DNA of 64,000 bases, from assembly GCF_040802235.1 (NCBI RefSeq), contig NC_133158.1, forward strand, positions 163,405,401-163,469,400, given 5' to 3'. Under the pieces are notes generated by a model. That model saw only the letters and a list, made by a program, of their open reading frames with translations. It had not been told where the DNA came from and searched no databases. A program made the position numbers and the translations under genes. The stretch comes from Manis javanica (lineage: Eukaryota > Chordata > Mammalia > Pholidota > Manidae). Below, piece after piece: positions 10,421 through 60,540 of the stretch; position 1 is the stretch's first letter; every line of letters begins with the position of its first letter.

Positions 10421-10438
10421 AACAGCGGACTCATTCTT
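10421..10438. repeat. Target-site duplication, copy 2 of 4
   Basis: AACAGCGGACTCATTCTT. It differs from copy 1 by a single T-to-C change and is again followed by a T-run. Confidence 0.88.
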
Positions 10439-10570: not shown

Positions 10571-10588
10571 AACAGCGGACTCATTCTT
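10571..10588. repeat. Target-site duplication, copy 3 of 4
   Basis: AACAGCGGACTCATTCTT, with the same C variant as copy 2. It precedes the long T-run of the third and largest insertion, which ends at copy 4 (18478-18493). Confidence 0.88.
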
Positions 10589-10821
10589 TTTTTTTTTTTT
10601 TTAGATAAGTATTTTTTATTGAAGGGTAGTTGACACACAGTATTACATTAGTTTCAGGTGTACAACACAGTGATTCAACATTTATATACATGATAATTCT
10701 AGGTACCAGCTACCACCATACCAAGTTGTTACAATATTTTGACTATATTCCTTATACTATACATTACATCCCGGTTACTTATTTATTTTACAATTGGAAG
10801 TGTGTACTTTTTTTTTTTTTT
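10589..10821 (-). mobile_element. L1 3'-end fragment at the tail of the composite insertion
   Basis: After a T-run, 'gataagtattttttattgaagggtagttgacacacagtattacattagtttcaggtgtac' is the reversed 3' UTR of an older L1 type common in laurasiatherians. It ends at 10807 directly against the poly(T) (10808-10821) of the env-LTR module. No target duplication lies between them, so it looks like downstream sequence carried along in the same event (a 3' transduction). Confidence 0.7.
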
Positions 10822-11141
10822 GTGAGGGCATCTCTCATATTTATTGATCAAATGGTTGTTAACCACAATAAAATTCTGTATATGGGGGTCAATGCTCAAT
10901 GCACAATCATTAATCCACCCCAAGCCTAATTGTCATCAGTCTCCAGTCTTCTGAAGCATAATGAACAAGTTCTTACATGGAGAACAAATTCTTACATAGT
11001 GAATAAGTTACATGGTGAACATTACAAGGGCAGTCATCACAGAAGCTTTTGGTTTTGATCATGCATTATAAACTATAAACAGTCAGTTCAAATATGAATA
11101 TTCATTTGATTTTTATACTTGATTTATATGTGGATACCACA
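10822..11141 (-). repeat. ERV LTR-like segment of module A, ends in poly(A)
   Basis: On the - strand it starts TGTGG right after a purine-rich tract (AAAGAGAGAAA), as an LTR does after its polypurine tract. It ends with an AATAAA signal about 18 nt before the poly(A). The LTR stops at the polyadenylation site, so U5 is missing, as expected for a reverse-transcribed mRNA and not for a provirus. It aligns along its length with 30677-30999. Confidence 0.75.
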
Positions 11142-11734
11142 TTTCTCTCTTTATTATTATTATTTTTAATAAAATGCTGAAGTGGTAGGTAGATACAAGA
11201 TAAAGGTAGAAAACATAGTGTAGTGTTGTAAGAGAGCAAATGTAGATGATCAGGTATGTGCCTGTAGACTATGTGTTAATCCAAGCTAGACAAGAGCAAT
11301 AAAACATCCACGTATGCAGAAGGTTTCTCTCAGAATGGGGGGGGGGGGAGTTCTAAGCCTCACCTCTGTTGATCCCCATTTTCTCACCTGATGGCCCCCC
11401 TGTGACTGTACCTGTCTTAGGTTGTTCCTCCCTTGAGGAATCTTACCCGTCTCTGGCTAACCAGTCATCTTCCGGGGCCATACAGGGAAATGTTAAGTTG
11501 GTAAGTGAGAGAGAAGCCTTATTGTTTGAAAAGGTTAGCTTTTTACTTCTTTGCATATTTTATGCCCTGTGGCTTCTATGCCCAGCATTTGTCTTGAGGT
11601 GTCTTTACCACTTGGAAGAATTATGATACTCGGTAAATTCGATATGAGGCACGAATTCTACTTAAGGGTTATAATTAGGAAGGAAGAAGAAAAGCTATAG
11701 AAGTAGCAGGCAGAAGAAAACCTGGGAAGATTGA

Positions 11735-12184
11735 TTATTTCTTTGACATATCCTCTTGTAGAGTAACTTCAGTATGTATAGGTTTTAAACTACTGATTAA
11801 ATTGTACACACACATTAACATAATAGGAGTACAGTTACATAACCAAAGCATACCTGTAATTACCAGCCATCTCCAGTGAAACCAAGAAAACCAGTTAGGC
11901 ACCTTAGGCATTTGTGAAAACTTATCTATAATATGGTGGATATTGTCCAACTGAACTTGAACAGTCTGAGAGAAATCAGACAAATTAAAACAACCCATTC
12001 CTGGGGACTGTTCACATCCCATATGTTCTTTTAACAGTAAATAGTCTGTAGTTGTAAGATTTTGGAGCACTACAAGTTGCACTTCTCCTAATTCTTGGTT
12101 GAGTTCCAACAGTTTAGATCCAGTCAAATTTGTTGTTTTGCTGTATGCACAGGCCAGCTTAGATATCTCCTTCTTCATTCCCAT
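11735..12184 (-). pseudogene. Fossil retroviral env transmembrane-subunit fragment (module A)
   Basis: An open frame of 149 codons resembles the C-terminal half of a retroviral transmembrane envelope subunit: a heptad-like helical stretch, an LLLKEHMGC segment followed by a loop with Cys spaced as in the CX6CC motif but with Gly at the first Cys of the pair, a second helix, a Trp-rich membrane-proximal stretch, a hydrophobic membrane span (around residues 105-130) and a short tail. The surface subunit, cleavage site and fusion peptide are absent, so no working envelope is possible. The frame is still open here but is frameshifted in copy B. Family: gammaretrovirus-like ERV by motif. I infer no host function. 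Confidence 0.7.
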
Positions 12185-12807
12185 GGCAAGTCCAGGAACT
12201 GGTGGGATGAATGCGTCTACACCTGTAGCAGTGCATGGATCTTTGTTAGGGTTTTTTGATGGTCATCTTCTGGCATGAGTCTTCCCGAGAGTGCTGATGT
12301 TGGAAGTTCTTTTTCATATCGTATCTTAGTTCATTTTCGGGGTAGCCAAATTAGGCTTTGATCCTCTGTATAAACACAAACAGACCCTTTGCCTACACTT
12401 TTATATGCCCTTTATATCATTGTGTAGAACTCATTGGAGGTCACCACACAGGAACTGCTTTTTCTTTTTTTTTTCTTTTTATTATTAATCTACACTTACA
12501 TTATGAATATTTTGTTTACTAGGCTCTCCCCTATACCAGGTCCCCCCTATATACCCCTTTACAGTCACTGTCCATCAGCGTAGCAAAATGTTGTAGAGTC
12601 ACTACTTGTCTTCTCTGTGTTGTACAGCCCTCCCCTTTCTCCCACCCTCCCATGCATGCTAATCTTAATACCCCCCTTTTTCTCCCCCTCCTTTATCTCT
12701 CCCTACCCACCCATCCTCCCCAGTCCCTTTCCCTTTGGTACCGGTTAGTCCATTCTTGAGTTCTGTGATTCTGCTGCTATTTTGTTCCTTCAGTTTTTCC
12801 TTTGTTC

Positions 12808-15800
12808 TTATACTCCACAGATGAGTGAAATTATCTGGTATTTCTCTTTCTCCGCTTGGCTTGTTTCACTGAGCATAATACTCTCCAGCTCCATCCATGT
12901 TGCTGCAAATTGTAGGATTTTCCCTTTTCTTATGGCTGAGTAGTATTCCATTGTGTATATGTACCACATCTTCTTTATCCATTCACCTATCAATGGACAT
13001 TTAGGTTGCTTCCAATTCTTGGCTATTATAAATAGTGCTGCGATAAACATAGGGGTGCATTGGTCTTTCTCATACTTGATTGCTGCATTCTTAGGGTAAA
13101 TTCCTAGGAGTGCAATTCCTGGGTCAAATGGTAAGTCTATTTTGAGCATTTTGATGTACCTCCATACTGCTTTCCACAATGGTTGAACTAATTTACATTC
13201 CCACCAGCAGTGTAGGAGGGTTCCCCTTTCTCCACAGCCTCGCCAACATTTGTTGTTGTTTGTCTTTTGGATGGCAGCCATCCTTACTGGTGTGAGGTGA
13301 TACCTCATTGTAGTTTTAATTTGCATTTCTCTGATAATTAGCGATGTGGAGCATCTTTTCATGTGTCTGTTGGCCATCTGTATTTCTTTTTTGGAGAACC
13401 GTCTGTCTGTTCAGTTCCTATGCCCATTTTTTAATTGGGTTATTTGTTTTTTGTTTGTTGAGGCATGTGAGCTCTTTATATATTCTGGACGTCAAGCCTT
13501 TATTGGATGTGTCATTTTCAAATATATTCTCCCATACTGTAGGGTTCCTTTTTGTTCTATTGATGGTGTCTTTTGCTGTACAGAAGCTTTTCAGCTTAAT
13601 ATAGTCCCACTTGTTCATTTTTGCTGTTGTTTTCCTTGCCCGGGGAGATATGTTCAAGAAGAGGTCACTCATGTTTATGTCTAAGAGGTTTTTGCCTATG
13701 TTTTTTCCAAGAGTTTAATGGTTTCATGACTTACATTCAGGTCTTTGATCCATTTTGAGTTTACTTTTGTATATGGGGTTAGACAATGGTCCAGTTTCAT
13801 TCTCCCACATGTAGCTGTCCAGTTTTGCCAGCACCATCTGTTGAAGAGACTGTCATTTCGCCATTGTATGTCCATGGCTCCTTTATCAAATATTAATTGC
13901 CCATATATGTTTGGGTTAATGTCTGGATTCTCTAGTCTGTTCCATTGGTCTGTGGCTCTGTTCTTGTGCCAGTACCAAATTGTCTTGATTACTATGGCTT
14001 TATAATAGAGCTTGAAGTTGGGGAGTGAGATCCCCCCTACTTTATTCTTCTTTCTCAGGATTGCTTTGGCTATTCGGGGTCTTTGGTGGTTCCATATGAA
14101 TTTTTGAATTATTTGTTCCAGTTCATTGAAGAATGTTGCTGGTAGTTTCACAGGGATTGCATCAAATCTGTATATTGCTTTGGGCAGGATGGCCATTTTG
14201 ATGATATTAATTCTTCCTAGCCATGAGTATGGGATGCGTTTCCATCTGTTAGTGTCCCCTTTAATTTCTCTTAAGAGTGACTTGTAGTTTTCAGAGTATA
14301 AGTCTTTCACTTCTTTGGTTAGGTTTATTCCTAGGTATTTTATTTTTTTTTGATGCAATTGTGAATGGAGTTGTTTTCCTGATTTCTCTTTCTGTTGGTT
14401 CATTGTTAGTGTATAGGAAAGCCACAGATTTCTGTGTGTTGATTTTGTATCCTGCAACTTTGCTGTATTCCGATATCAGTTCTAGTAGTTTTGGGGTGGA
14501 GTCTTTAGGGTTTTTCATGTATAGTATCATGTCATCTGCAAATAGTGACAGTTTAACTTCTTCTTTACCAATCTGGATTCTTTGTATTTTTTTGTTTTGT
14601 CTGATTGCCGTGGCTAGGACCTCCAGTACTATGTTAAATAACAGTGGGGAGAGTGGGCATCCCTGTCTAGTTCTCAATCTCAGAGGAAAAGCTTTCAGCT
14701 TCTCGCTGTTCAATATAATGTTGGCTGTGGGTTTTTCATAGATGGCCTTTATTATGTTGAGGTACTTGCCCTCTATTCCCATTTTGCTGAGAGTTTTTAT
14801 CATGAATGGATGTTGAACTTTGTCAAATGCTTTTTCAGCATCTATGGAGATGATCATGTGGTTTTTGTCTTTCTTTTTGTTGATGTGGTGGATGATGTTG
14901 ATGGACTTTCGAATGTTGTGCCATCCTTGCATCCCTGAGATGAATCCCACTTGGTCATGGTGTTCAATCCTTTTGATGTATTTTTGAATTCGGTTTGCTA
15001 ATATTTTGTTGAGTATTTTTGCATCTACGTTCATCAGGGATATTAGTATGTAGTTTTCTTTTTTGGTGGGGTCTTTGCCTGGTTTTGGTATTAGGGTGAT
15101 GTTAGCTTCATAGAATGAGTTTGGGAGTATCCCCTCCTCTTCTATTTTTTGGAAAACTTTAAGGAGAATGGGTATTATGTCTTCCCTGTACGTCTGATAA
15201 AATTCTGAGGTAAATCCATCTGGCCCAGGGGTTTTGTTCTTTGGTAGTTTTTTGATTACCGATTCAATTTCGTTGCTGGTAATTGGTCTGTTTAGATTTT
15301 CTGTTTCTTTCTGGGTCAGTCTTGGAAGGTTGTATTTTTCTAGGAAGTTGTCCATTTCTCCTAGGTTTCCCAGCTTGTTAGCATATAGGTTTTCATAGTA
15401 TTCTCTAATAATTCTTTGTATTTCTTTGGGGTCTGTCATGATTTTTCCTTTCTCATTTCTGATACTGTTGATTTGTGTTGACTCTCTTTTCCTCTTAATA
15501 AGTCTGGCTAGAGGCTTGTCTATTTTGTTTATTTTCTCAAAGAACCAGCTCTTGTTTCATTGATTTTTACTATTGTTTTATTCTTCTCAATTTTATTCAT
15601 TTCTTCTCTGATCTTTATTATGTCCCTCCTTCTGCTGACCTTATGCCTCATTTGTTCTTCTTTTTCCAATTTCGATAACTGTGACATTAGACCTTTCATT
15701 TGGGATTGTTCTTCCTTTTTTAAATATGCTTGGATTGCTATATACTTTCCTCTTAAGACTGCTTTTGCTGTGTCCCACAGAAGTTGGGGCTTAGTGTTGT

Positions 15801-16662
15801 TGTTGTCGTTTGTTTCCATATATTGCTGGATCTCCATTTTGATTTGGTCATTGATCCATTGATTATTTAAGAGCGTGTTGATAAGCCTCCATGTGTTTGT
15901 GAGCCTTTTTGCTTTGTTTGTACAGTTTATTTCTAGTTTTATGCCTTTGTGGTCTGAAAAGTTGGTTGGTAGGATTTCAATCTTTTGGAATTTACTGAGG
16001 CTCTTTTTGTGGCCTAGTATGTGGTCTATTCTGGAGAATGTTCCATGTGCACTTGAGAAGAATGTGTATCCTGTTGCTTTTGGATGTAGAGTTCTGTAGA
16101 TGTCTATTAGGTCCATCTGTTGTAGTGTGTTGTTCAGTGCCTCTGTGTTCTTACTTATTTTCTGTCTGGTGGATCTGTCCTTTGGAGTGAGTGGTATGTT
16201 AAAGTCTCCCAAAATGAATGCATTGCATTTTATTTCCTCCTTTAATTCTGTTAGTGTTTGTTTCACATATATTGGTGCTCCTGTATTGGGTGCATATATG
16301 TTTATAATGGTTATATCCTCTTGTTGCACTGAGCCCTTTATCCTTATGTAATGTCCTTCTTTGTCTTTTGTTACTTTCTTTATTTTGAAGTCTGTTTTGT
16401 CTGATACCAGAATTGCAACACCTGCTTTCTTCTCTTTGTTGTTTGCCTGAAATGTCTTTTTCCATCCCTTGACTTTAAGTCTGTGCATGTCTTTGGGTTT
16501 GAGGTGGGTCTCTTGTAAGCAGCATATGGATGGATCTTGCTTTTTTATCCATTCTATAACTCTGTGTCTTTTGATTGGTGCATTCAGTCCATTTACATTT
16601 AGGGTGATTATTGAAAGGTATGAACTTATTGCCATTGCAGGCTTTGGATTTGTGGTTACCAA
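12808..16662 (-). pseudogene. L1-A ORF2 remnant (endonuclease/reverse transcriptase)
   Basis: Pieces in order on the - strand: 16662-15529 is the apurinic-type endonuclease with TLNVNGL, QETHL, GDFN and SDHKG motifs. Next, 15439-14291 is the reverse transcriptase with a normal SIDAEKAFD motif A and FADD motif. Then 14457-13696 and 13377-12808 carry the C-terminal part with the Cys-rich CWRGC...HCWWEC motif. At least three frame breaks (near 15500, 14300-14450 and 13400-13700) separate them, so this copy cannot make ORF2p. Confidence 0.92.
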
Positions 16663-16826
16663 AGGTTAAGGGTTCGCTTCTTTACTATCTCATTGTCTAA
16701 CTTAACTCACTTGTTGAGTTATTATAAACACAGTCTGATGATTATTTCTCTCCCTTCTTATTCCTCCTCCTCCCTTCTTCATATGTTGGGTGTTTTGTTC
16801 TGTGCTCTTTTTAGGAGTGCTCCCAT

Positions 16827-17687
16827 CTAGAGCAGTCCCTGTAAGATGCCCTGAAGAGGTGGTTTGTGGGAGGCAAATTCCCTCAACTTTTGCCTTTCTG
16901 GGAATTGTTTAATCCCTCCTTCATATTTAAATGATATTCGTGCTGGATACAGTAGTCTTGGTTCGAGGCCCTTCTGTTTCATTGCATTAAGTATATCATG
17001 CCATTCTCTTCTGGCCTGTAGGGTTTCTGTTGAGATGTCTGATGATAGCCTGATGGGTTTTCCTTTGTAGGTGACCTTTTTTTTCTCTCTGGCTGCCTTT
17101 AATACTTTGTCCTTGTCTTTGATCTTTGCCATTTTAATTATTATGTGTCTTGGTGTTGCCCTCCTTGAATCCCTTGTCATGGGAGTTCTGTGTACCTCTG
17201 TGGTCTAAGAGGCCATTTCTTCCCCTAGTTTGGGGAAGTTTTCGGCAATTATTTCTTCAAAGACACTTTCTATCCCTTTTTCTCTCTCTTCTTCTTCTGG
17301 TATTCCTATAATGCGTATATTGTTCCTTTTCGATTGGTCACTCAGCTCTCTTAGAATTCTTTCATTCCTGGAGATCCTTTTATCTCTCTCTGCATCAGCT
17401 TCTCTGCGTTCCTGTTCTCTGTTTTCTAGACCATTAATGGTTTCTTGCATCTCGTCCATTCTGTTTTGAAGCCCTTCCAGATCTTGTTTTATTTCTGTAT
17501 TCTCCTTCCTTAGTTCTTGCATATTTCTCTGCAAGTCCATCAGCATGGTTATGACTTTTGTTTTGAATTCTTTTTCAGGAAGACTGGCTAAATCTATCTC
17601 CCCAGGTTCCTTCTCAGGGGAAGATGTGGCAGATGCCGAAGCTGTCTGGGTTAGTCTTGTCTGGATCATATTTTTTTGCCTTTTCAT
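16827..17687 (-). pseudogene. L1-A ORF1 with a single nonsense codon
   Basis: It encodes the L1 RNA-binding chaperone: an N-terminal segment, a coiled coil with LEGLQNRMDEM, an RRM-like core (NNIRIIGIPEEEE) and a C-terminal domain ending PPLQGILQGLL. One stop (TAG, complement of 17205-17207) replaces a Gln that is CAG in L1-B. The frame is otherwise open from 17687 to 16827, so one C-to-T change appears to be the only lesion. Confidence 0.88.
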
Positions 17688-18477
17688 GTTGACAGGTGCT
17701 ATTGACTGTCAGCTGGGAGGACCAAACTTTTCACTTGCTACTGGCCTTTCTTTACTGGGACAACTGCAACCCCTAGTGGCCTGTGTTGGGTAATCACGTG
17801 TAGGCTGGGTCTTTGTGTCTTGCCCAGCCAAAGTATAGGAATTTTCCTTTCTGCCTTTCTGTGGGCGTGTTTTGCCTTAGGCTGTTTCTCTGCTTTCGCA
17901 GCGCCGGGAGGGGTAATGGATGGAGGGGGGGGGCTGTTTGGCTGTTTACCTCCATGAGGGATCTCAGAGCTGTTGCCCAGGGGGTTAATGCACCTGGTTT
18001 TCCCTGTAATTTCCAGCCACTGAGCTGTGACCTGTGTTGTTTCCATCTAGCTGTTAAATCCCTGTCCCTTTAAGACTTTCAAAGAGCACTGGCTTTTCTT
18101 TGTCACAGGGGCATCAGCTTCAAAACCCGCTCAGAGGTCTTGCTGCCCTATTTCCCTAGTTTCCAGCCCTCCACGCATGCACTGTGTCTGCGCTCTGGTG
18201 CGGGTGGCTGGGGCTGGGTGTTTAGCAGTCCTGGGCTCCCTCTCCCTCCTGCCAAGAGCTGGGGGAAGGTGTGCTGGGGTCCCACTGGCCGGGGCTTTTA
18301 TCTTACCCCTTTCACCAGGTGCTGGGCTCTCACACATGTCGATGTAGTCAGGCTGTTGTCCTGTGTCTTCTGGTCTCTCTTTTAGGATTAGTTGTATTTG
18401 TTGTATTTTCAAAAATATATGTGTTTTTGGGAAGAGATTCCCACTGTCCTACTCATGCCGCCATGTTGGCTCCGCCT

Positions 18478-18493
18478 CAGTGGACTCATTCTT
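18478..18493. repeat. Target-site duplication, copy 4 of 4
   Basis: CAGTGGACTCATTCTT followed by AAAAGG. This right-hand copy keeps the intact TT/AAAA endonuclease site, so it could be reused after each insertion. Confidence 0.88.
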
Positions 18494-22280: not shown

Positions 22281-23925
22281 GGGCGGAGCCAGGATGGCGG
22301 CGTGAGTAGAGCAGTGGAAATCTCCTCCCCAAAACACATAGAGCTATGAAAATATAACAAAGAAAAATCTTCCTAAAATAGAGACCACAGGACACAGGAC
22401 AACATCCAGACCACATCCACACCTGCAAGAACCCAGCGCCTTGTGAAGGGGGTAAGATACAAGCCCCAGCCTGGCGGGACCCGAGCGCCCCTCCCCCCGG
22501 CTCCCGGCGGGTGGAGAGAAACCGGAGCGGTTTTTTTTTTTTTTTTTTTTGGCGAGCGCTTTTTGGAAGCCTTAGAGGGACGGGCCCCCGTTGCTGGGGA
22601 GGCAGGGTGGCGGGACCGGTGAGGAGGTGCCTGGGAACGGCGCCGGAGAACAAAGAATATCCCGCGTTTCTCCCTGCGAGACCGGGGGGCGGGTGCCTGA
22701 GACCGGTGCCTGAGGACGGAGGAGGTCGCGCGTTTTTCCCCTTTTTTTTTTTTTTTTCTTCTCTTTTTGGCGAGCGCTTTTTGGAAGCCTTGAAGGGACG
22801 GGGACCCCAGTGCTAGGGAGGCACGGTGGCGGGACTGGTGAGCGGGTGGCTGGGACCGGCGCCTGAGGACAAAGAATATCCCCCGTTTTTCCCTGCGGGA
22901 CCGGTGGGCGGGTGCCTGAGACCGGCACTTGAGGACAGAGGAAATCGCGCGTTTTTCCCCTTTTTTTTTTTTCTCTTTTCTGCGAGTGCTTTTTGGAAGC
23001 CTAAAAGGGACAGGGACCCCGGTGCTAGGGAGGCAGGGCGGCGGGACTGGTGAGCGGGTGCCTGGGACCGGCACCTGAGGACAAAGAATATCCCGCATTT
23101 TTCCCTGTGGGACCGGTGGGTGGGTGCCTGAGACCAGCACCTGAGGACGGAAGAAATCGCGCGTTTTTCCCCTTTTTTTTCTCTCTTTTTGCCGAGTGCT
23201 TTTTGGAAGCCTTGAAGGGACAGGGACCCCGGTGCTAGGGAGGCAGGGCAGCGGGACTGGTGAGCGGGTGCGTGGGACCAGTGCCTGAGGACAAAGAATA
23301 TTGAGCGTTCCTTCCCTGCGGGACCGGTGGGTGGGTGCTTTTTGGAAGCCTTGAAAGGACAGGGACCCTGGTGCTAGGGAGACAGGGCAGCAGGACCAGT
23401 GAGCGGGTGCCTGGGACCGGCACCTGAGGACAAAAAAAAAAAAAAAAAAAAAAAATCGCTTGTTTTTTCCTTTTTTTTCCTTTTTTTTTTTTCTCTTTCT
23501 TTCTGTTCCCTCTCTCATTGTTGCTGTTGTTGTTTTGGTTTGGAGAGTGCTTTTTGGAAATCTTAAAGGGGCAGGACAGGTCACTTAGACCAGAGGCAGG
23601 GAATCTGGGGATCTCTGGGCACTCTAACCCCCTGGGCAGCAGGGAGCACAGAGGCCCCTTACAGAGATAAATAGTCTCCTGGCTGCTCCCCCTCCAACGG
23701 GGCTCCACCATTTTGGAGGAACAGCCCCAGCCAGGCCAAGCCCACAGCAACAGCGGAGATAAACCCCAAAGCAACTGGGCAGGAAGCAGAAGCCCTGTCT
23801 GCGCACAGCTGCCCAGCACAAGCCACTAGAGGTCGCTATTCTCCCAGGAAAAGGCTACAAACCAACAAGAAGGGAAGCTCTTCCAGCGGTCACTTGTACC
23901 AGCTCTGCAAACTATCTCTATCACC
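22281..23925 (+). promoter_or_regulatory. L1-B 5' UTR promoter region built from tandem monomers
   Basis: Units begin with a GGCGAGYGCTTTTTGGAAGC-like phrase at 22551, 22769, about 22981, 23191, about 23330 (shortened) and about 23541. Spacing is about 210-218 bp except for one 139-bp unit. Each unit has a T-rich run, a GGACCCCGGTGCTAGGGAGG block, a TGAGCGGGTGCCTGGGACCGG block and a CAAAGAATATCCC block. This is similar in principle to rodent L1 monomer promoters. L1-A and L1-C lack these units. Confidence 0.85.
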
Positions 23926-24816
23926 ATGAAAAGGCAAAACTACAGGCAGACAAAGATCACAGAGACAACACCTGAGAAGGAGACAGACCTAACTAGTCTT
24001 CCTGAAAAAGAATTCAAAATAAAAATCATGAACATGCTGACAGAGATGCAGAAAAAAATGCAAGAGCAATGGGATGAGATGCAGAGAAAAATGCAAGAGC
24101 AGTGGGATGAAGTCCGGAAGGAGATCACAGATGTCAGGAAAGAGATCACAGAAGTGAAACAATCCCTGGAAGGATTTATAAGCAGAATGGATAAGATGCA
24201 AGAGGCCATTGAAGGAATAGAAGCCAGAGAACAGGAACGTATAGAAGCTGACATAGAGAGAGATAAAAGGATCTCCAGGAATGAAACAACACTAAGAGAA
24301 ATATGTGACCAATACAAAAGGAAAAACATTCGTATTATAGGGATACCAGAAGAGGAAGAAAGAGGAAAAGGGATAGAAAGTGTCTTTGAAGAAATAATTG
24401 CTGAAAACTTCCCCAAACTGGGGGAGGAAATAATCGAACAGACCATGGAATTATACAGAACCCCCAACAGAAAGGATCCAAGGAGGACAACACCAAGACA
24501 CATAATAATTAAAATGGCAAGGATCAAGGACAAGGAAAGAGTTTTAAAGGCAGCTAGAGAGAAAAAGGTCACCTATAAAGGAAAACCAATCAGGCTAACA
24601 TCAGACTTCTCAACAGAAACCCTACAGGCCAGAAGAGAATGGCATGATATACTTAATGCAATGAAACAGAAGGGCCTTGAACCAAGGATACTGTATCCAG
24701 CACGACTATCATTTAAATATGATGGTGGGATCAAACAATTCCCAGACAAGCAAAAGCTGAGGGAATTTGCTTCCCACAAACCACCTCTACAGGGCATCCT
24801 ACAGGGACTGCTCTAG
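23926..24816 (+). CDS. L1-B ORF1p, RNA-binding chaperone
   Basis: 296 codons, complete. ORF1p trimerises through a coiled coil and packages L1 RNA. Here the coiled coil spans roughly residues 35-115, the RRM-like core begins near residue 132 (KNIRIIGIPEEEE) and the C-terminal domain runs from about 225 to the end (PPLQGILQGLL). The ATG at 23926 follows an 'atcacc' context and gives an N-terminus like the other L1 ORF1s in the window. The coiled coil contains two in-frame micro-duplications: 33 bp (24046-24078 and 24079-24111) and 21 bp (24112-24132 and 24133-24153), adding 11 and 7 residues, which keep the coiled-coil register. L1-A and L1-C lack them. Confidence 0.95.
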   Translation: MKRQNYRQTKITETTPEKETDLTSLPEKEFKIKIMNMLTEMQKKMQEQWDEMQRKMQEQWDEVRKEITDVRKEITEVKQSLEGFISRMDKMQEAIEGIEAREQERIEADIERDKRISRNETTLREICDQYKRKNIRIIGIPEEEERGKGIESVFEEIIAENFPKLGEEIIEQTMELYRTPNRKDPRRTTPRHIIIKMARIKDKERVLKAAREKKVTYKGKPIRLTSDFSTETLQARREWHDILNAMKQKGLEPRILYPARLSFKYDGGIKQFPDKQKLREFASHKPPLQGILQGLL

Positions 24817-24984
24817 ATGGGAGCACCCCTAAAAAGAGCACAGAACAAAACACACAACATATGAAGAATGGAGGAGGAGGAATAAGAAGGGAGAGAAGAA
24901 AAGAATCTCCAGACAGTGTATATAACAGCTCAATAAGCGAGCTAAGTTAGGCAGTAAGATACTAAAGAAGCTAACCTTGAACCT

Positions 24985-27900
24985 TTGGTAACCATGAATC
25001 TAAAGCCTGCAATGGCAATAAGTACATATCTTTCAATAGTCACCCTAAATGTAAATGGACTTAATGCACCAATCAAAAGACATAGAGTAATAGAATGGAT
25101 AAAAAAGCAAGACCTATCTATATGCTGCTTACAAGAAACTCACCTTAAACCCAAAGATAAGCATAGACTAAAAGTCAAGGGATGGAAAAACATATTTCAG
25201 GCAAACAACAGTGAGAAGAAAGCAGGGGTTGCAGTACTAATATCAGACAAAATAGACTTCAAAACAAAGAAAGTAACAAGAGATAAAAAAGGCCACTACA
25301 TAATGATAAAGGGCTCAGTCCAACAAGAGGATATAACCATTCTAAATATATATGCACCCAATACAGGAGCACCAGCATATGTGAAGCAAATACTAACAGA
25401 ACTAAAGAGGGAAATAGACTGCAATGCATTCATTGTAGGAGACTTCAACACACCACTCACCCCAAAGGATAGATCCACCAGGCAGAAAATAAGTAAAGAC
25501 ACACAGGCACTGAACAACACACTAGAACAGATGGACCTAATAGACATCTATAGAACTTTACATCCAAAAGCAACAGGATATACATTCTTCTCAAGTGCAC
25601 ATGGAACATTCTCCAGAATAGACCACATACTAGCTCACAAAAAGAGCCTCAGTAAATTCCACAATATTGAAATTCTACCAACCAATTTTTCAGACCACAA
25701 AGGTATGAAAGTAGAAATAAATTCTACAAAGAAAACAAAAAGGCTCACAAACACATGGAGGCTTAACAACATGCTACTAAATAATCAATGGATCAATGAA
25801 CAAATCAAAATAGAGATCAAGGAATATATAGAAACAAATGACAACAACAACACTAAGCCCCAACTTCTGTGGGATGCAGCGAAAGCAGTCTTAAGAGGAA
25901 AGTATATAGCAATCCAGGCACACTTGAAGAAGGAAGAACAATCCCAAATGAATAGTCTAACATCACAATTATTAAAACTGGAAAAAGAAGAACAAATGAG
26001 GCCTAAAGTCAGCAGAAGGAGGGACATAATAAAGATCAGAGAAGAAATAAACAAAATTGAGAAGAATAAAACAATAGCAAAAATCAACGAAACCAAGAGC
26101 TGGTTCTTTGAGAAAATAAACAAAATAGATAAGCCTCTAGCCCAACTTATTAAGAGAAAAAGAGAGTCAACACAAATCAACATAATCAGAAATGAGAATG
26201 GAAAAATCACGACAGACTCCACAGAAATACAAAGAATTATTAAAGACTACTATGAAAACCTATATGCCAACAAGCTGGAAAACCTAGAAGAAATGGACAA
26301 CTTCCTAGAAAAATACAACCTCCCAAGACTGACCAAGGAAGAAACACAAAAGTTAAACAAACCAATTACAAGCAAAGAAATTGAAACAGTAATCAAAAAA
26401 CTACCCAAGAACAAAACCCCGGGGCCGGACGGATTTACCTCGGAATTTTATCAGACACACAGAGAAGACATAATACCCATTCTCCTTAAAGTGTTCCACA
26501 AAATAGAAGAAGAGGGAATACTCCCAAACTCATTCTATGAAGCCAACATCACCCTAATACCAAAACCAGGAAAAGACCCCACCAAAAAAGAAAATTACAG
26601 ACCAATATCCCTGATGAATGTAGATGCAAAAATACTCAATAAAATATTAGCAAACAGAATTCAACAGTATATCAAAAGGATCATACACCATGACCAAGTG
26701 GGGTTCATCCCAGGGATGCAAGGATGGTACAACATTCGAAAGTCCATCAACATCATCCACCACATCAACAAAAAGAAAGACAAAAACCACATGATCATCT
26801 CCAAAGATGCTGAAAAAGCATTTGACAAAATTCAACATCCATTCATGATAAAAACTCTCAGCAAAATGGGAATAGAGGGCAAGTACCTCAACATAATAAA
26901 GGCCATATATGATAAACCCACAGCCAGCATTATACTGAACAGCGAGAAGCTGAAAGCATTTCCACTGAGATCGGGAACGAGACAGGGATGCCCACTCTCC
27001 CCACTGTTATTTAACATAGTACTGGAGGTCCTAGCCACGGCAATCAGACAAAACAAAGAAATACAAGGAATCCAGATTGGTAAAGAAGAAGTTAAACTGT
27101 CACTATTTGCAGATGATATGATACTGTACATAAAAAACCCTAAAGGCTCCACTCCAAAACTACTAGAACTGATATCGGAATACAGCAAAGTTGCAGGATA
27201 CAAAATCAACACACAGAAATCTGTAGCTTTCCTATACACTAACAACGAATCAATAGAAAGAGAAATCAGGAAAACAATTCCATTCACCATTGCATCAAAA
27301 AGAATAAAATACCTAGGAATAAACCTAACCAAGGAAGTGAAAGACTTATACTCTGAAAACTACAAGTCACTCTTAAGAGAAATTAAAGGGGACACTAATA
27401 AGTGGAAACTCATCCCATGCTCATGGCTAGGAAGAATTAATATCGTCAAAATGGCCATCCTGCCGAAAGCAATATACAAATTTGATGCAATCCCTCTCAA
27501 ATTACCAGCAACATTCTTCAATGAATTGGAACAAATAATTCAAAAATTCATATGGAAACACCAAAGACCCCGAATAGCCAAAGCAATCCTGAAAAAGAAG
27601 AATAAAGTAGGGGGGATCTCACTCCCCAACTTCAAGCTCTACTACAAAGCCATAGTAATCAAGACAATTTGGTACTGGCACAAGAACAGAGCCACAGACC
27701 AGTGGAACAGATTAGAGACCCCAGAAATTAACCCAAACATATATGGTCAATTAATATTTGATAAAGGAGCCATGGACATACAATGGCAAAATGACAGTCT
27801 CTTCAACAGATGGTGCTGGCAAAACTGGACAGCTACATGTAGGAGAATGAAACTGGACCATTGTCTAACCCCATATACAAAGGTAAACTCAAAATGGATC

Positions 27901-28827
27901 AAAGACCTGAATGTAAGTCACGAAACCATTAAACTCTTGGAAAAAAACATAGGCAAAAACCTCTTAGACATTAACATGAGTGATCTCTTCTTGAACATAT
28001 CTCCCCGGGCAAGGAAAACAACAGCAAAAATGAGCAAGTGGGAGTACATTAAGATGAAAAGCTTCTGTACAGCGAAAGACACCATCAATAGAACAAAAAG
28101 GAACCCTACAGTATGGGAGAATATATTTGAAAATGACAGATCTGATAAAGGCTTGACGTCCAGAATATATAAAGAGCTCACACGCCTCAACAAACAAAAA
28201 ACAAATAACCCAATTAAAAAATGGGCAGAGGAACTGAACAGACAGTTCTCCAAAAAAGAAATACAGATGGCCAAGAGACACATGAAAAGATGCTCCACAT
28301 CGCTAATTATCAGAGAAATGCAAATTAAAACTACAATGAGGTATCACCTCACACCAGTAAGGATGGCTGCCATCCAAAAGACAAACAACAACAAATGTTG
28401 GCGAGGCTGTGGAGAAAGGGGAACCCTCCTACACTGCTGGTGGGAATGTAAATTAGTTCAACCATTGTGGAAAGCAGTATGGAGGTGCATCAAAATGCTC
28501 AAAACAGACCTACCATTTGACCCAGGAATTCCACTCCTAGGAATTTACCCTAAGAACGCAGCAATCAAGTTTGAGAAAGACAGATGCACTCCTATGTTTA
28601 TCGCAGCACTATTTACAATAGCCAAGAATTGGAAGCAACCTAAATGTCCATCTGTAGATGAATGGATAAAGAAGATGTGGTACATATACACAATGGAATA
28701 CTACTCAGCCATAAGAAGTGGAAAAATCCAACCATTTGCAGCAACATGGATGGAGCTGGAGAGTATTATGCTCAGTGAAATAAGCCAAGAGGAGAAAGAG
28801 AAATACCAAATGATTTCACTCATCTGA
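24985..28827 (+). CDS. L1-B ORF2p, endonuclease and reverse transcriptase
   Basis: 1280 codons, complete, separated from ORF1 by a 168-bp spacer. The protein nicks DNA and primes reverse transcription of L1 RNA. The endonuclease motifs are all present: TLNVNGL, QETHL, GDFN, RIDHI and SDHKG. The reverse transcriptase has [12 protein letters not shown] and FADD (residues 708-711). The C-terminal Cys motif is intact (C1138, C1142, H1150, C1155). Oddity: motif A reads SKDAEKAFD, with Lys607 before the catalytic Asp608, where L1-A has Ile. This could impair activity. An alternative start is the ATG at 25012, ten codons in, which places the endonuclease nearer the N-terminus as in human ORF2. Confidence 0.95.
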
Positions 28828-29200
28828 GGAGTATAGGAACAAAGGAAAAACTGAAGGAACAAAACAGCAGCAGAATTACAGAACCCAAAAATGGACTAAC
28901 AGGTACCAAAGGGAAAGGAACTGGGGAGGATGGGTGGGCAGGGAGGGATAAGGGGGGGAAGAAGAAGGGGGGTATTAAGATTAGCATGCATGGGGGGGAG
29001 GGAGAAAGGGGAGGGTGGGCTGCACAACACAGAGAGGACAAGTAGTGACTCTACCACATTTTGCTAAGCTGATGGACAGTAACCGTAATGTGGTTGTTAG
29101 GGGGGACCTGATATAGGGGAGAGCATAGTAAACATAGTATTCTTCAGGTAAGTGTAGATTAAAAATTAAAAAAAAAAAAAAGAAAGAAAGAAAGAAAAGG

Positions 29201-29359: not shown

Positions 29360-29597
29360 GCAGTTACTGTGTGCTGACCTCCAATGAGTTCTGCACAGTG
29401 GTATAGAGGGCATGTCAAAGTGTGGGCAAAGGGTCTGTTTGTTTCTACGCAGAAGATCAAGGCCTAGCTTGGATACCCAGAAAATGAACTAAGATACGAT
29501 ATGAGGAGGAGCTTCCGGCATGAGCACTCTCTGGAGGACTCGTGCCGGGGGATGATCATCAAAAAGCCTCCACAGGGATCCGGACGATGCTGCGGTT

Positions 29598-30069
29598 GTG
29601 GCTGCATCCAGCCCACCGTCTCCTGGACTTGCCATAAGAAGGAGGAGGGAGATGTCTAGGCTGGCATGTGCATACAGTGAGACAACGAATTTGACTGGAT
29701 CTGTACTGTTGGAACTCAACCAGGAGTTGGGAGGGGTGCAAGTTGTAGCACCCCAAAATCTCATGACTATAGACTATCTATGGTTAAAAGAACATATGGG
29801 ATGTGAACAGATCCCAGAAATGGGCTGCTTTAATTTGTCTGATGGTTCAAGTACAGTTGGAAAATATCCATCATATCATAGATAAATTTTCACAAATGCC
29901 TAGGGTGCCTAAATGGTTTTCTTGGCTTCACTGGAGATGGCTGGTAATTATAGATTTGCTTTGTTTATGTCACCGTATTCCTATTATGTTAATATGTGTG
30001 TGCAAATTAGTTAGTAGTTTAAAACCTATACATACTTAAGGTACTATACAAGAAGATATGTCAAAGAAA
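29598..30069 (+). pseudogene. Fossil env transmembrane-subunit fragment (module B), frameshifted
   Basis: It is the same region of the retroviral transmembrane subunit as in module A, but the frame changes near 29840-29860 (the first open piece ends at 29885 and the second runs 29803-30039), so it cannot be read through. The Gly in place of the first Cys of the CX6CC-like pair is shared with copy A, implying a common ancestor that already had it. It lacks the surface subunit and fusion peptide, and no protein function is expected. Confidence 0.7.
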
Positions 30070-30676
30070 TAATCAATCCTCCCAAGTTTCCTTCATATGC
30101 TACATCTATAGCTTTTCTTCTTCCTTCCTAATTACAAACCTTAAATAGAATTCGTGCCTCATATCGAATTTACCGAGTATCATAATTCCTCCAGGTGGTA
30201 AAGATACCTCGAGACAAATGCTGGGCATAGAAGCCACAGGGCATAAATCTGCAAAGAAGTAAAAAGCTAACCTTTGCAAACAATATGGCTTCTCTCTCAC
30301 TTACCAACTTTACATTTCCCTGTATGGCCCCGGAAGATGACTGGTTAGCCAGAGACGGGTAAGATTCCTCAAGGGAGGAACAACCTAAGACAGGCACAGT
30401 CGCAGGGGGGCCATCAGGTGAGAATTTGGGGATCAACAGAGGTGAGGCTCAGAACCTCACCCCCCCTGCTTTGAGAGAAATCTTCTGCATCCGTGGATGT
30501 CTTGCTGCCCTTGTCTAGCCTGGATTAATACTTAGTCCATAGGCACACACCTGATCATCTGATCATCTACATTTGCCTTCTTACAGCACTAAACTATGTT
30601 TTCTACCTTTATCTTGCATCTACCTACCACTTCAGCATTTTATTAAAAATAAAAATAATAATAATAATAGGAGAAA

Positions 30677-30999
30677 TGTGGGATCAACATATAAATCAAG
30701 TACAAAAATCAAATGAATATTCATATTTGACCTGATTGTTTATAGGTCAAAATGCATGATCAAAACCGAAAGTTTCTGTGATGAATGCCCTTGTACTGTT
30801 CACCATGTAAGAATTTATTCACTCTGTAAGAATTCGTTCACCATGTAAGAACTTGTTCGTTATGCTTCAGAAGATTGGAGACTGACGAGAATTAGGCTTG
30901 AGATGGATTAATGATTGTACATTGAGCATTGACCCCCCTATACTGAATTTTATTGTTGTTAACAACCATTTGATCAATAAATATGAGAGATGCCCTCTC
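30677..30999 (+). repeat. ERV LTR-like segment of module B with AATAAA
   Basis: It starts TGTGGGATC after an A/G-rich tract and ends at a poly(A) beginning at 31000. AATAAA lies at 30976-30981, 18 nt upstream of the poly(A). Three TTGTTC/GTAAGAA-rich internal repeats (about 30800-30860) are also present in copy A. U5 is missing. Confidence 0.75.
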
Positions 31000-31014
31000 A
31001 AAAAAAAAAAAAAA

Positions 31015-31974
31015 GACACCTTGAAACACAGAAGTGACAACCAAGTTAAAGCCCTTGAGATGGGCCTGAATACTGATTATGAGACAGTAAGTTTTCTTTT
31101 TACTCAAGCTTATTCAAGTTGGTTTTCCATCTCTTCCAATGAAAAGAATTTGATTGATTCAAATGCAATAAAGCAAATGCAATAAGTGATGGAGTATATC
31201 ACGAAGAAGTATACTTTTATAAGACATCCCAAGAGGCTATGAACTGTATCTCCTATAGCTCAGAAAAAGCATCTTCCCGATATCACCCAACAAATATAAT
31301 TACAGGGTACTATTTTTAAAAAACAGCAATTAATCTTTTTGATCAACAATTACTAGCACAATGTTCTTTCATTTCTTTCATGTAACTTATTTATCCAATA
31401 ATTTTTCCCCATTCTCTAGGGCTTCCTAGTTAGTGAAATATGACACTTGTAGTCATAGTCTGTTTATGACTGATGTGTTTATCTTCAAAGCTCAAGCCAA
31501 AGCTGATTTTTCTTAAATTTGTCTCACAAATACAAATTCATAAAGGAAAATAAATTACTTTAGTTTTGTTTTGATTTTAATGAAAAGGCTAGTTTCAATA
31601 CAGTTATCCCAGCTGTTTACCGAGCAGTGATCTCTAAAGTGGGATATGTGCACTAAAGTGTTTGGAAGATAAGCCAAGTATTGAAATAAACTAAATTTAG
31701 AAACAGACCTCTGAATAAGTGTATCACAAAATACTGAACCACGATTTTAAAGAGTAATTAAGCATTACTTTGTTTTCTATATATTAATAAAAAATTAAAA
31801 TGAGAAAAAAATATATATATATAATTATAAAATATATGCCAGGCACAATCTGTTAATTGACACTTGTTAATATATTTCTTCTCAAGAGTTGATATTTTAT
31901 GCTTTGCATGTGAGCATATATCCTCCATTACTCGGGTAAGTTGTTTCACCTCTCCGAGCTCTACTTCTTCATAT
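31015..31974. other. Intron 3, second part, nothing recognised
   Basis: AT-rich sequence with a short TA tract near 31810-31830. No repeat family or gene could be assigned. Confidence 0.45.
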
Positions 31975-60224: not shown

Positions 60225-60540
60225 GTGAGGGCTATGGACACTGAGAGGTGACTGGTGGTTACCATGCGGGAGGCGGTGTGGGTGCATGAAATAGGTGATG
60301 GGGATAAACAGGCACAAAATCTCAATCATAATACAAATTAGTCATGGGGATGAAAGTAAAGCATGGGGAATACAGTCAATGATTCTGTAACATCTTTCTA
60401 TGTTGACAGATAGTAACTACACTAGTTGGGGTGAGCATTTAATAATGTAGATAACTGTGGAATCACTATGTTGTATGCTTGAAACCAATATAATATTGTT
60501 TATAATCTATACTTTAATAAAAATAAATTTCTTTAAAAAG
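60225..60540 (+). mobile_element. 5'-truncated L1 3' end
   Basis: 'gactggtggttaccatgcgggagg', 'aatctcaatcataatacaaattagtcatgg' and 'gaatcactatgttgtatgcttgaaaccaatataatattg', ending in 'ctttaataaaaataaa', is an L1 3' UTR like that at 35230-35530. Confidence 0.85.

Follow-up and report, generated by a model that had tools for sequence, protein, structure and literature searches.

Among the L1 3′-transduction families of humans, the one called the largest to date has 14 members, according to the part of the literature at hand (PMC6425141). SVA elements carry the retrovirus-derived SINE-R, and LAVA elements carry L1 fragments, as set out in the excerpts available of two accounts (PMC7353768; PMC4432496). 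Retroviral sequence in composites moved by L1 is best known from apes, in SVA; in the pangolin Manis javanica, such sequence appears to have been joined by another route, 3′ transduction. The window analysed here, a stretch of 64,000 nt from contig NC_133158.1, contains a full-length L1 (L1-A) followed by a 1,637-nt env/LTR block (E) and by a piece of an older L1, its 3′ end (L1x). Very probably, L1–E–L1x is the unit that moves, an L1 lineage in which a 3′ transduction has become fixed and which has been mobilized whole by L1 target-primed reverse transcription, because the truncation points of the L1 vary and, in 11 of 14 loci tested, the target duplications lie around the composite in its entirety. 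No published account of such an element was found in the open-licence literature searched, and an L1 family bearing a 3′ module of retroviral origin would, to our knowledge, be the first.

Results

One L1-type insertion, framed by a single target duplication, spans positions 10573–18493 of the window and reads, in its sense orientation (minus strand), duplication, L1-A, A-rich tract, E, tract of 14 A, L1x, tail and duplication. The duplication (CAGYGGACTCATTCTT) is found at both 18478–18493 and 10573–10588, in copies that differ by one C/T: the 5′ copy (18478–18493, minus strand) is CAGTGGACTCATTCTT, its matching part, AAGAATGAGTCC, being recovered by script, and the 3′ copy (10573–10588, minus strand), which is preceded by the tail of L1x, is CAGCGGACTCATTCTT. 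L1-A (12481–18477, minus strand) has a 5′ UTR, broken ORF1 and ORF2, and a 3′ UTR, and over its entire length it can be aligned with the L1 portions of two other loci of the genome, L033 and L035. Its 3′ tail immediately precedes E, the border between the two being an internal A-rich tract (12459–12480, minus strand) that is found at the same place in 40/40 scored matches of the genome-wide search described below. E itself (copy 1) occupies 10822–12458 of the minus strand and is separated by its 14 A (10808–10821, minus strand) from L1x (10603–10807, minus strand), an older L1 3′ end of ~205 nt that carries the last poly(A) signal and sits between the poly(A) of E and the 3′ target duplication; a relative of L1x, older and 68% identical, is located at 60323–60539. 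Altogether, the transduced part, E plus the older L1 end, amounts to ~1.86 kb. An earlier, sequence-only reading had placed the tail of the L1 and E inside one target duplication; this holds, but that reading had missed L1x between the poly(A) and the duplication.

The target duplication is seen four times in the window, at 18478, 10573, 10423 and 10252; the repeats at 10423 and 10252 belong to two further short, old L1 3′ ends inserted at the nick of the composite, which brings the L1-type insertions to three altogether. Within the window, no Rfam family was found at gathering score and no tRNA; no tandem array adjoins E, and one short array lies within it.

E is composed of an env C-terminal remnant, a 3′ noncoding part and the U3-R of an LTR without U5, with a poly(A) end, as the sequence-only reading had described. 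The env transmembrane remnant (11735–12184, minus strand), an open frame of 149 aa, matches the fusion TM of ASLV (4.8e-9) and a GP2 ectodomain (6.2e-6) in the PDB and none of the Pfam families; it has 42 related clusters in a protein collection and is therefore multi-copy. The LTR part (U3-R; 10822–11141, minus strand), the boundary of which is a putative one, was recognized from a purine tract, a TG start and a poly(A) signal in the sequence. The 3′ end is U3-R-like, without U5, and its AATAAA (10840–10845, minus strand) stands ~18 nt ahead of the A-tract. The 5′ end, on the other side, falls inside env and not in R: similarity between the 5′ 400 nt and the 3′ 800 nt was not above that of shuffles, no R-U5 is present at the 5′ end, and no leader was recognized at the start.

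E alone, with no L1, served as the query against the window's own genome (2.56 Gb, 63 contigs), and a loose first pass yielded 7450 first-look candidates, of which the best 40, including the window (L001), were scored. Being the best matches to copy 1 and non-random, these 40 speak for copy 1's branch of E, not for all E. In all 40 the match to E stops no more than 3 nt short of either end, at 95–97% in the 39 other than the window, and one extra partial row adjoins L026. Flanks were examined over 1.5 kb per side in 30 loci and over 0.5 kb in the other 10. An L1 3′ UTR with its A-tract lies directly 5′ of E in 40/40 scored matches, with the same junction, and L1x follows the A-tract of E in 39/40. 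The variants of L1x are few: it is without its first 21 nt in L027 and its first 7 in L010, is interrupted in L026, and follows an 80-nt A-rich tract in L044. The exception is L014, which ends at E's own poly(A) and has a 9-nt duplication. An insertion hot spot inside L1x was also considered as a general account and is opposed by the junctions common to 40/40 scored matches.

The L1 part is cut short within the 1.5-kb flank in 10 of the 30 loci, at 144–1152 nt, whereas a full-length L1 is attached in the window, L033 and L035; L034 is cut within the L1, and L033 is inserted in another L1 with a 14-nt duplication. The L1 bodies are broken in all four composites examined at length (the full-length window, L033 and L035, and the partial L034), with no active composite among them. 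Two loci, L024 and L025, lie 5.8 kb apart, differ by 0.12% in E and represent a local duplication, counted as two among the 40. The sequence-only reading had offered ordinary proviruses, or no copies beyond two, as outcomes that would speak against its proposal; neither appeared among the 40 scored matches, which include no provirus with two LTRs and gag-pol (0/40) and in which the 5′ neighbour is an L1 in 40/40 and the 3′ neighbour L1x in 39/40. The count of copies adjoining an L1 against solo copies, which it had likewise proposed, came to 40 versus 0 in the best 40 of the 7450 candidates, a set of best matches biased toward copy 1's branch. No hexamer, Alu-like or VNTR domain was seen in the scored matches, the 5′ neighbour being the L1 3′ UTR in all 40.

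Several loci display peculiarities of their own. L005 and L007 keep ~145 nt of L1 and end within 1 nt of each other at different target duplications, which reflects either chance or a short derived form. In L026 (3130–3870 of the sense strand), L1x is interrupted by a 3′ fragment of E, followed by apparently inverted L1 sequence, and in the 3′ flank of L038 inverted E sequence directly follows the composite. The A-tract after E starts as (AC)n in 5/40 loci (L030, L021, L016, L004 and L043).

Duplications of 9–18 nt surround the entire composite in 11 of the 14 loci tested, compared with 5/182 mismatched cross pairs in the control, the longest of which was 11; at L008, L017 and L034, of these 14 loci, no duplication of at least 9 nt was found. 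In the loci that have a duplication, the final tail was read after L1x or E. The fused L1 plus env/LTR retroposon proposed by the sequence-only reading does exist, in multiple copies with poly(A) ends, a common junction (40/40) and L1-type duplications (11/14 loci).

These data bear on two accounts in which the association of L1 and E would be an accident of insertion. In one, an independent retroposon, E, landed by chance in the poly(A) tail of L1-A. L1 targets include poly(A) tails, copy 2 of E stands alone and is preceded by an A-run, and E plus L1x is flanked on either side by a short AAAAAG; yet the same L1–E junction recurs in 40/40 scored matches, L1x follows E in 39/40 and the duplications enclose the composite in 11/14 loci, so that a local nested insertion is extremely unlikely to explain the structure, although an event akin to it may have made the founder. 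In the other, the reverse transcriptase jumped from E RNA to L1 RNA during insertion and thereby produced a chimera. Chimeric L1 retrogenes that arose by template switching are known, and the window taken alone is compatible with such an origin, but identical breakpoints at the scored loci need common descent rather than repeated switching; we regard template switching as very improbable for these copies, and it could apply to the founder only.

Joint mobility of the parts can also be viewed through their divergence. The mean pairwise divergence is similar for E, at 3.2% (30 copies), and for the L1 3′ part, at 4.0% (19 copies), a likeness in keeping with joint descent; that of L1x is higher, at 5.9% (28 copies), a rough value in that the slices include the tail. 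The E and L1 distances correlate (Mantel r 0.44, reached by 33/2000 permutations, N=18 after 12 of the 30 loci were left out), which would fit, to a modest degree, joint descent of the two sequences. At 2.2e-9 substitutions per site per year, an average mammal rate used for pangolin in the consulted part of its source (PMC4643047), the 3.2% divergence of E translates into ~7 million years, a figure that is only indicative.

The distribution of poly(A) signals differs along the composite. Within the 75 nt that precede E, counted with the A-tract, AATAAA was found in 5/40 loci, including the window; 5 others have ATTAAA alone, and 30 have neither. By contrast, AATAAA is present at the end of E in 35/40 loci and at the end of L1x in 33 of the 38 loci in which that end was recognized. 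Since the L1's own 3′ end is mostly without AATAAA, transcripts probably read through it, and the scarcity of AATAAA and ATTAAA before E, set against the frequency of AATAAA at the ends of E and L1x, is most simply read as read-through with tailing at L1x; as a counterpoint, one or the other of these signals is present close to the end of the L1 in 10/40 loci, window included.

The second copy of E in the window (29360–30999, plus strand) has an A-run before it and a poly(A) at 31000–31014. It is 86.6% identical to copy 1 (BLAST), 191 of 1623 aligned columns differing (12% divergence), and both ends are common to the two copies, as the sequence-only reading had noted: the start, (G)CAGTT, comes after an A-run, and the poly(A) begins ~18 nt past AATAAA. 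The fused retroposon of that reading does not extend to copy 2, which has no L1 directly before it, the tail of L1-B ending ~145 nt upstream; what is copied here is E by itself and not the fused unit.

Copy 2 is peculiar in its substitutions. Across 29360–29773, compared with 12458–12045, the branch of copy 2 shows a strong cluster of substitutions in one direction, from A to G: the first 414 columns contain (copy 1/copy 2) 43 A/G, 5 G/A, 6 C/T and 9 T/C, and the remaining columns 12, 12, 19 and 25 in the same order (Fisher p 3e-9). When the first 700 columns are taken together, a changed A is rarely preceded by G (3/42) and is preferentially followed by one (17/44), neighbours that resemble those of ADAR editing. 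Several of the sites at which the copies differ could be polarized with relatives (31 of the 42 proteins were used), A being the old state, and copy 2's residues at some A/G sites are common to the metagenome relatives P0009, P0024 and P0038 and, in part, P0012. An A-to-G-edited RNA may thus have founded an E subfamily, with editing before reverse transcription and subsequent amplification of the edited copy.

The L1 upstream of copy 2, L1-B (22282–29199), is without E and looks young, with both ORFs open and ORF1 and ORF2 domains in Pfam; its 5′ region contains about four 212-nt tandem units (22531–23338). No target duplication of L1-B was found beside copy 2 or its own tail, and the 12-nt matches at 31819 and 62577 were taken as chance. 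Its two open ORFs suggest that L1 has recently been active in this genome.

Protein relatives from metagenomes provide a further view of the ends of E. A protein query over the 3′ end of E found five relatives, in each of which residues derived from poly(A) occupy the corresponding position, although in P0048 the tract is A-rich and not pure A. Past this junction, two of the five (P0044 and P0048) continue into L1x, and three (P0045–P0047), known from their 3′ junctions, have other flanks. In P0025, P0038 and P0041, unrelated sequence comes first and E is then entered at different points, as would be the case in 5′-truncated copies. The protein query over the 5′ junction (L1/E) gave no candidate, and the viral and genome contig collections scanned, from which records of the window's own genome were possibly excluded, contained no relative.

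Could E, then, form a non-autonomous family of the SVA kind that has a promoter and a 5′ end of its own, and of which the composite is a side branch? Copy 2, though it has no L1, begins at the base at which copy 1 begins, relatives truncated inside E occur among the metagenome proteins (P0025, P0038 and P0041) and three of the five metagenome 3′ junctions (P0045–P0047) have 3′ flanks other than L1x. Against this, the 40 scored matches include no solo copy, biased to copy 1's branch as they are, E starts inside env where no leader was recognized, and solo copies that start exactly at the L1/E border can come from truncation in the A-tract of the composite. On balance, we consider an independent E family unlikely, if considerably less so than the two accidents of insertion discussed above.

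Discussion

According to the reading favoured here, in which L1–E–L1x is itself the mobile unit, L1 RNA runs from the 5′ UTR through its own A-tract into E; cleavage and tailing usually take place where L1x ends, but at the LTR end of E in one scored locus out of 40 (L014). Reverse transcription from this tail then generates full-length copies (the window, L033 and L035) and copies truncated within the L1, most of them with a duplication around the whole. The founder was presumably an L1 in front of L1x, and its tail/L1x border would have received a 5′-truncated, polyadenylated retroviral env–LTR transcript, E, inserted by L1; its descendants would have carried E and L1x, and the 3′ transduction would have become the 3′ end of the lineage. 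We infer both the formation of the founder and the order of joining. More tentatively, the L1 lineage might have swapped its working 3′ end for a retroviral LTR, acquired by capture, and the end of an older L1, the poly(A) signals of both doing the work of a poor end of its own, with possibly thousands of copies and with solo E shed by truncation at the internal A-tract; we view this wider scenario as possible rather than probable. The composite offers a natural test of how L1s acquire new 3′ ends, of whether a borrowed LTR poly(A) signal aids a weak-ended L1, and of the spread of retroviral LTR sequence without retroviral integration.

Among the known systems, the human L1 3′-transduction families, as portrayed in the available portion of their description, resemble the pangolin composite in the read-through to a downstream poly(A) signal, the internal poly(A) tract, the duplications around the whole and a lineage traceable by its transduced sequence (PMC6425141). 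Indeed, the composite displays an L1 body, an internal A-tract, non-L1 sequence and a poly(A) end, with E common to 40/40 and L1x to 39/40 scored matches. It is unlike the human families, as far as that same portion goes, in that 1.64 kb of retroviral env/LTR sequence and an older L1 end are transduced, and in that the L1–E junction is found in 40 loci examined, of 7450 first-look E candidates (PMC6425141).

The likeness to SVA, which the sequence-only reading had suggested, is only partial: L1 does move retroviral env/LTR sequence here, but that sequence belongs to the 3′ end of a lineage of L1 and does not form a separate SVA-like element. A retrovirus-derived part (env TM and U3-R) ending in poly(A) is present, yet L1x comes after the A-tract of E in 39/40 scored loci. 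On the question of mobilization in trans, as in a non-autonomous element, a full-length L1 is attached in the window, L033 and L035, with ORFs that are broken. SVA and LAVA, in the excerpts consulted, are similarly composite, L1-moved and poly(A)-ended, but each is a non-autonomous element in its own right, built with hexamer, Alu-like and VNTR parts (PMC7353768; PMC4432496). No such part was seen here, where E is attached to an L1.

With regard to its retroviral part, E parallels the HERV-W processed pseudogenes, which, in the sections of the report to hand, are L1-copied retroviral RNAs with a U3-R 3′ end, poly(A), no U5 and an L1-type duplication; the HERV-W copies, however, start with R-U5 and are separate insertions, whereas E has its start within env and moves together with an L1 (PMC5537654). 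The env retrocopy ARTenvV of Hippotraginae, from another mammal order, likewise appears, in the available part of its account, as L1-copied ERV env RNA with a duplication and A's; unlike E, it is there described as one copy, with no family and not joined to an L1 (PMC9604959).
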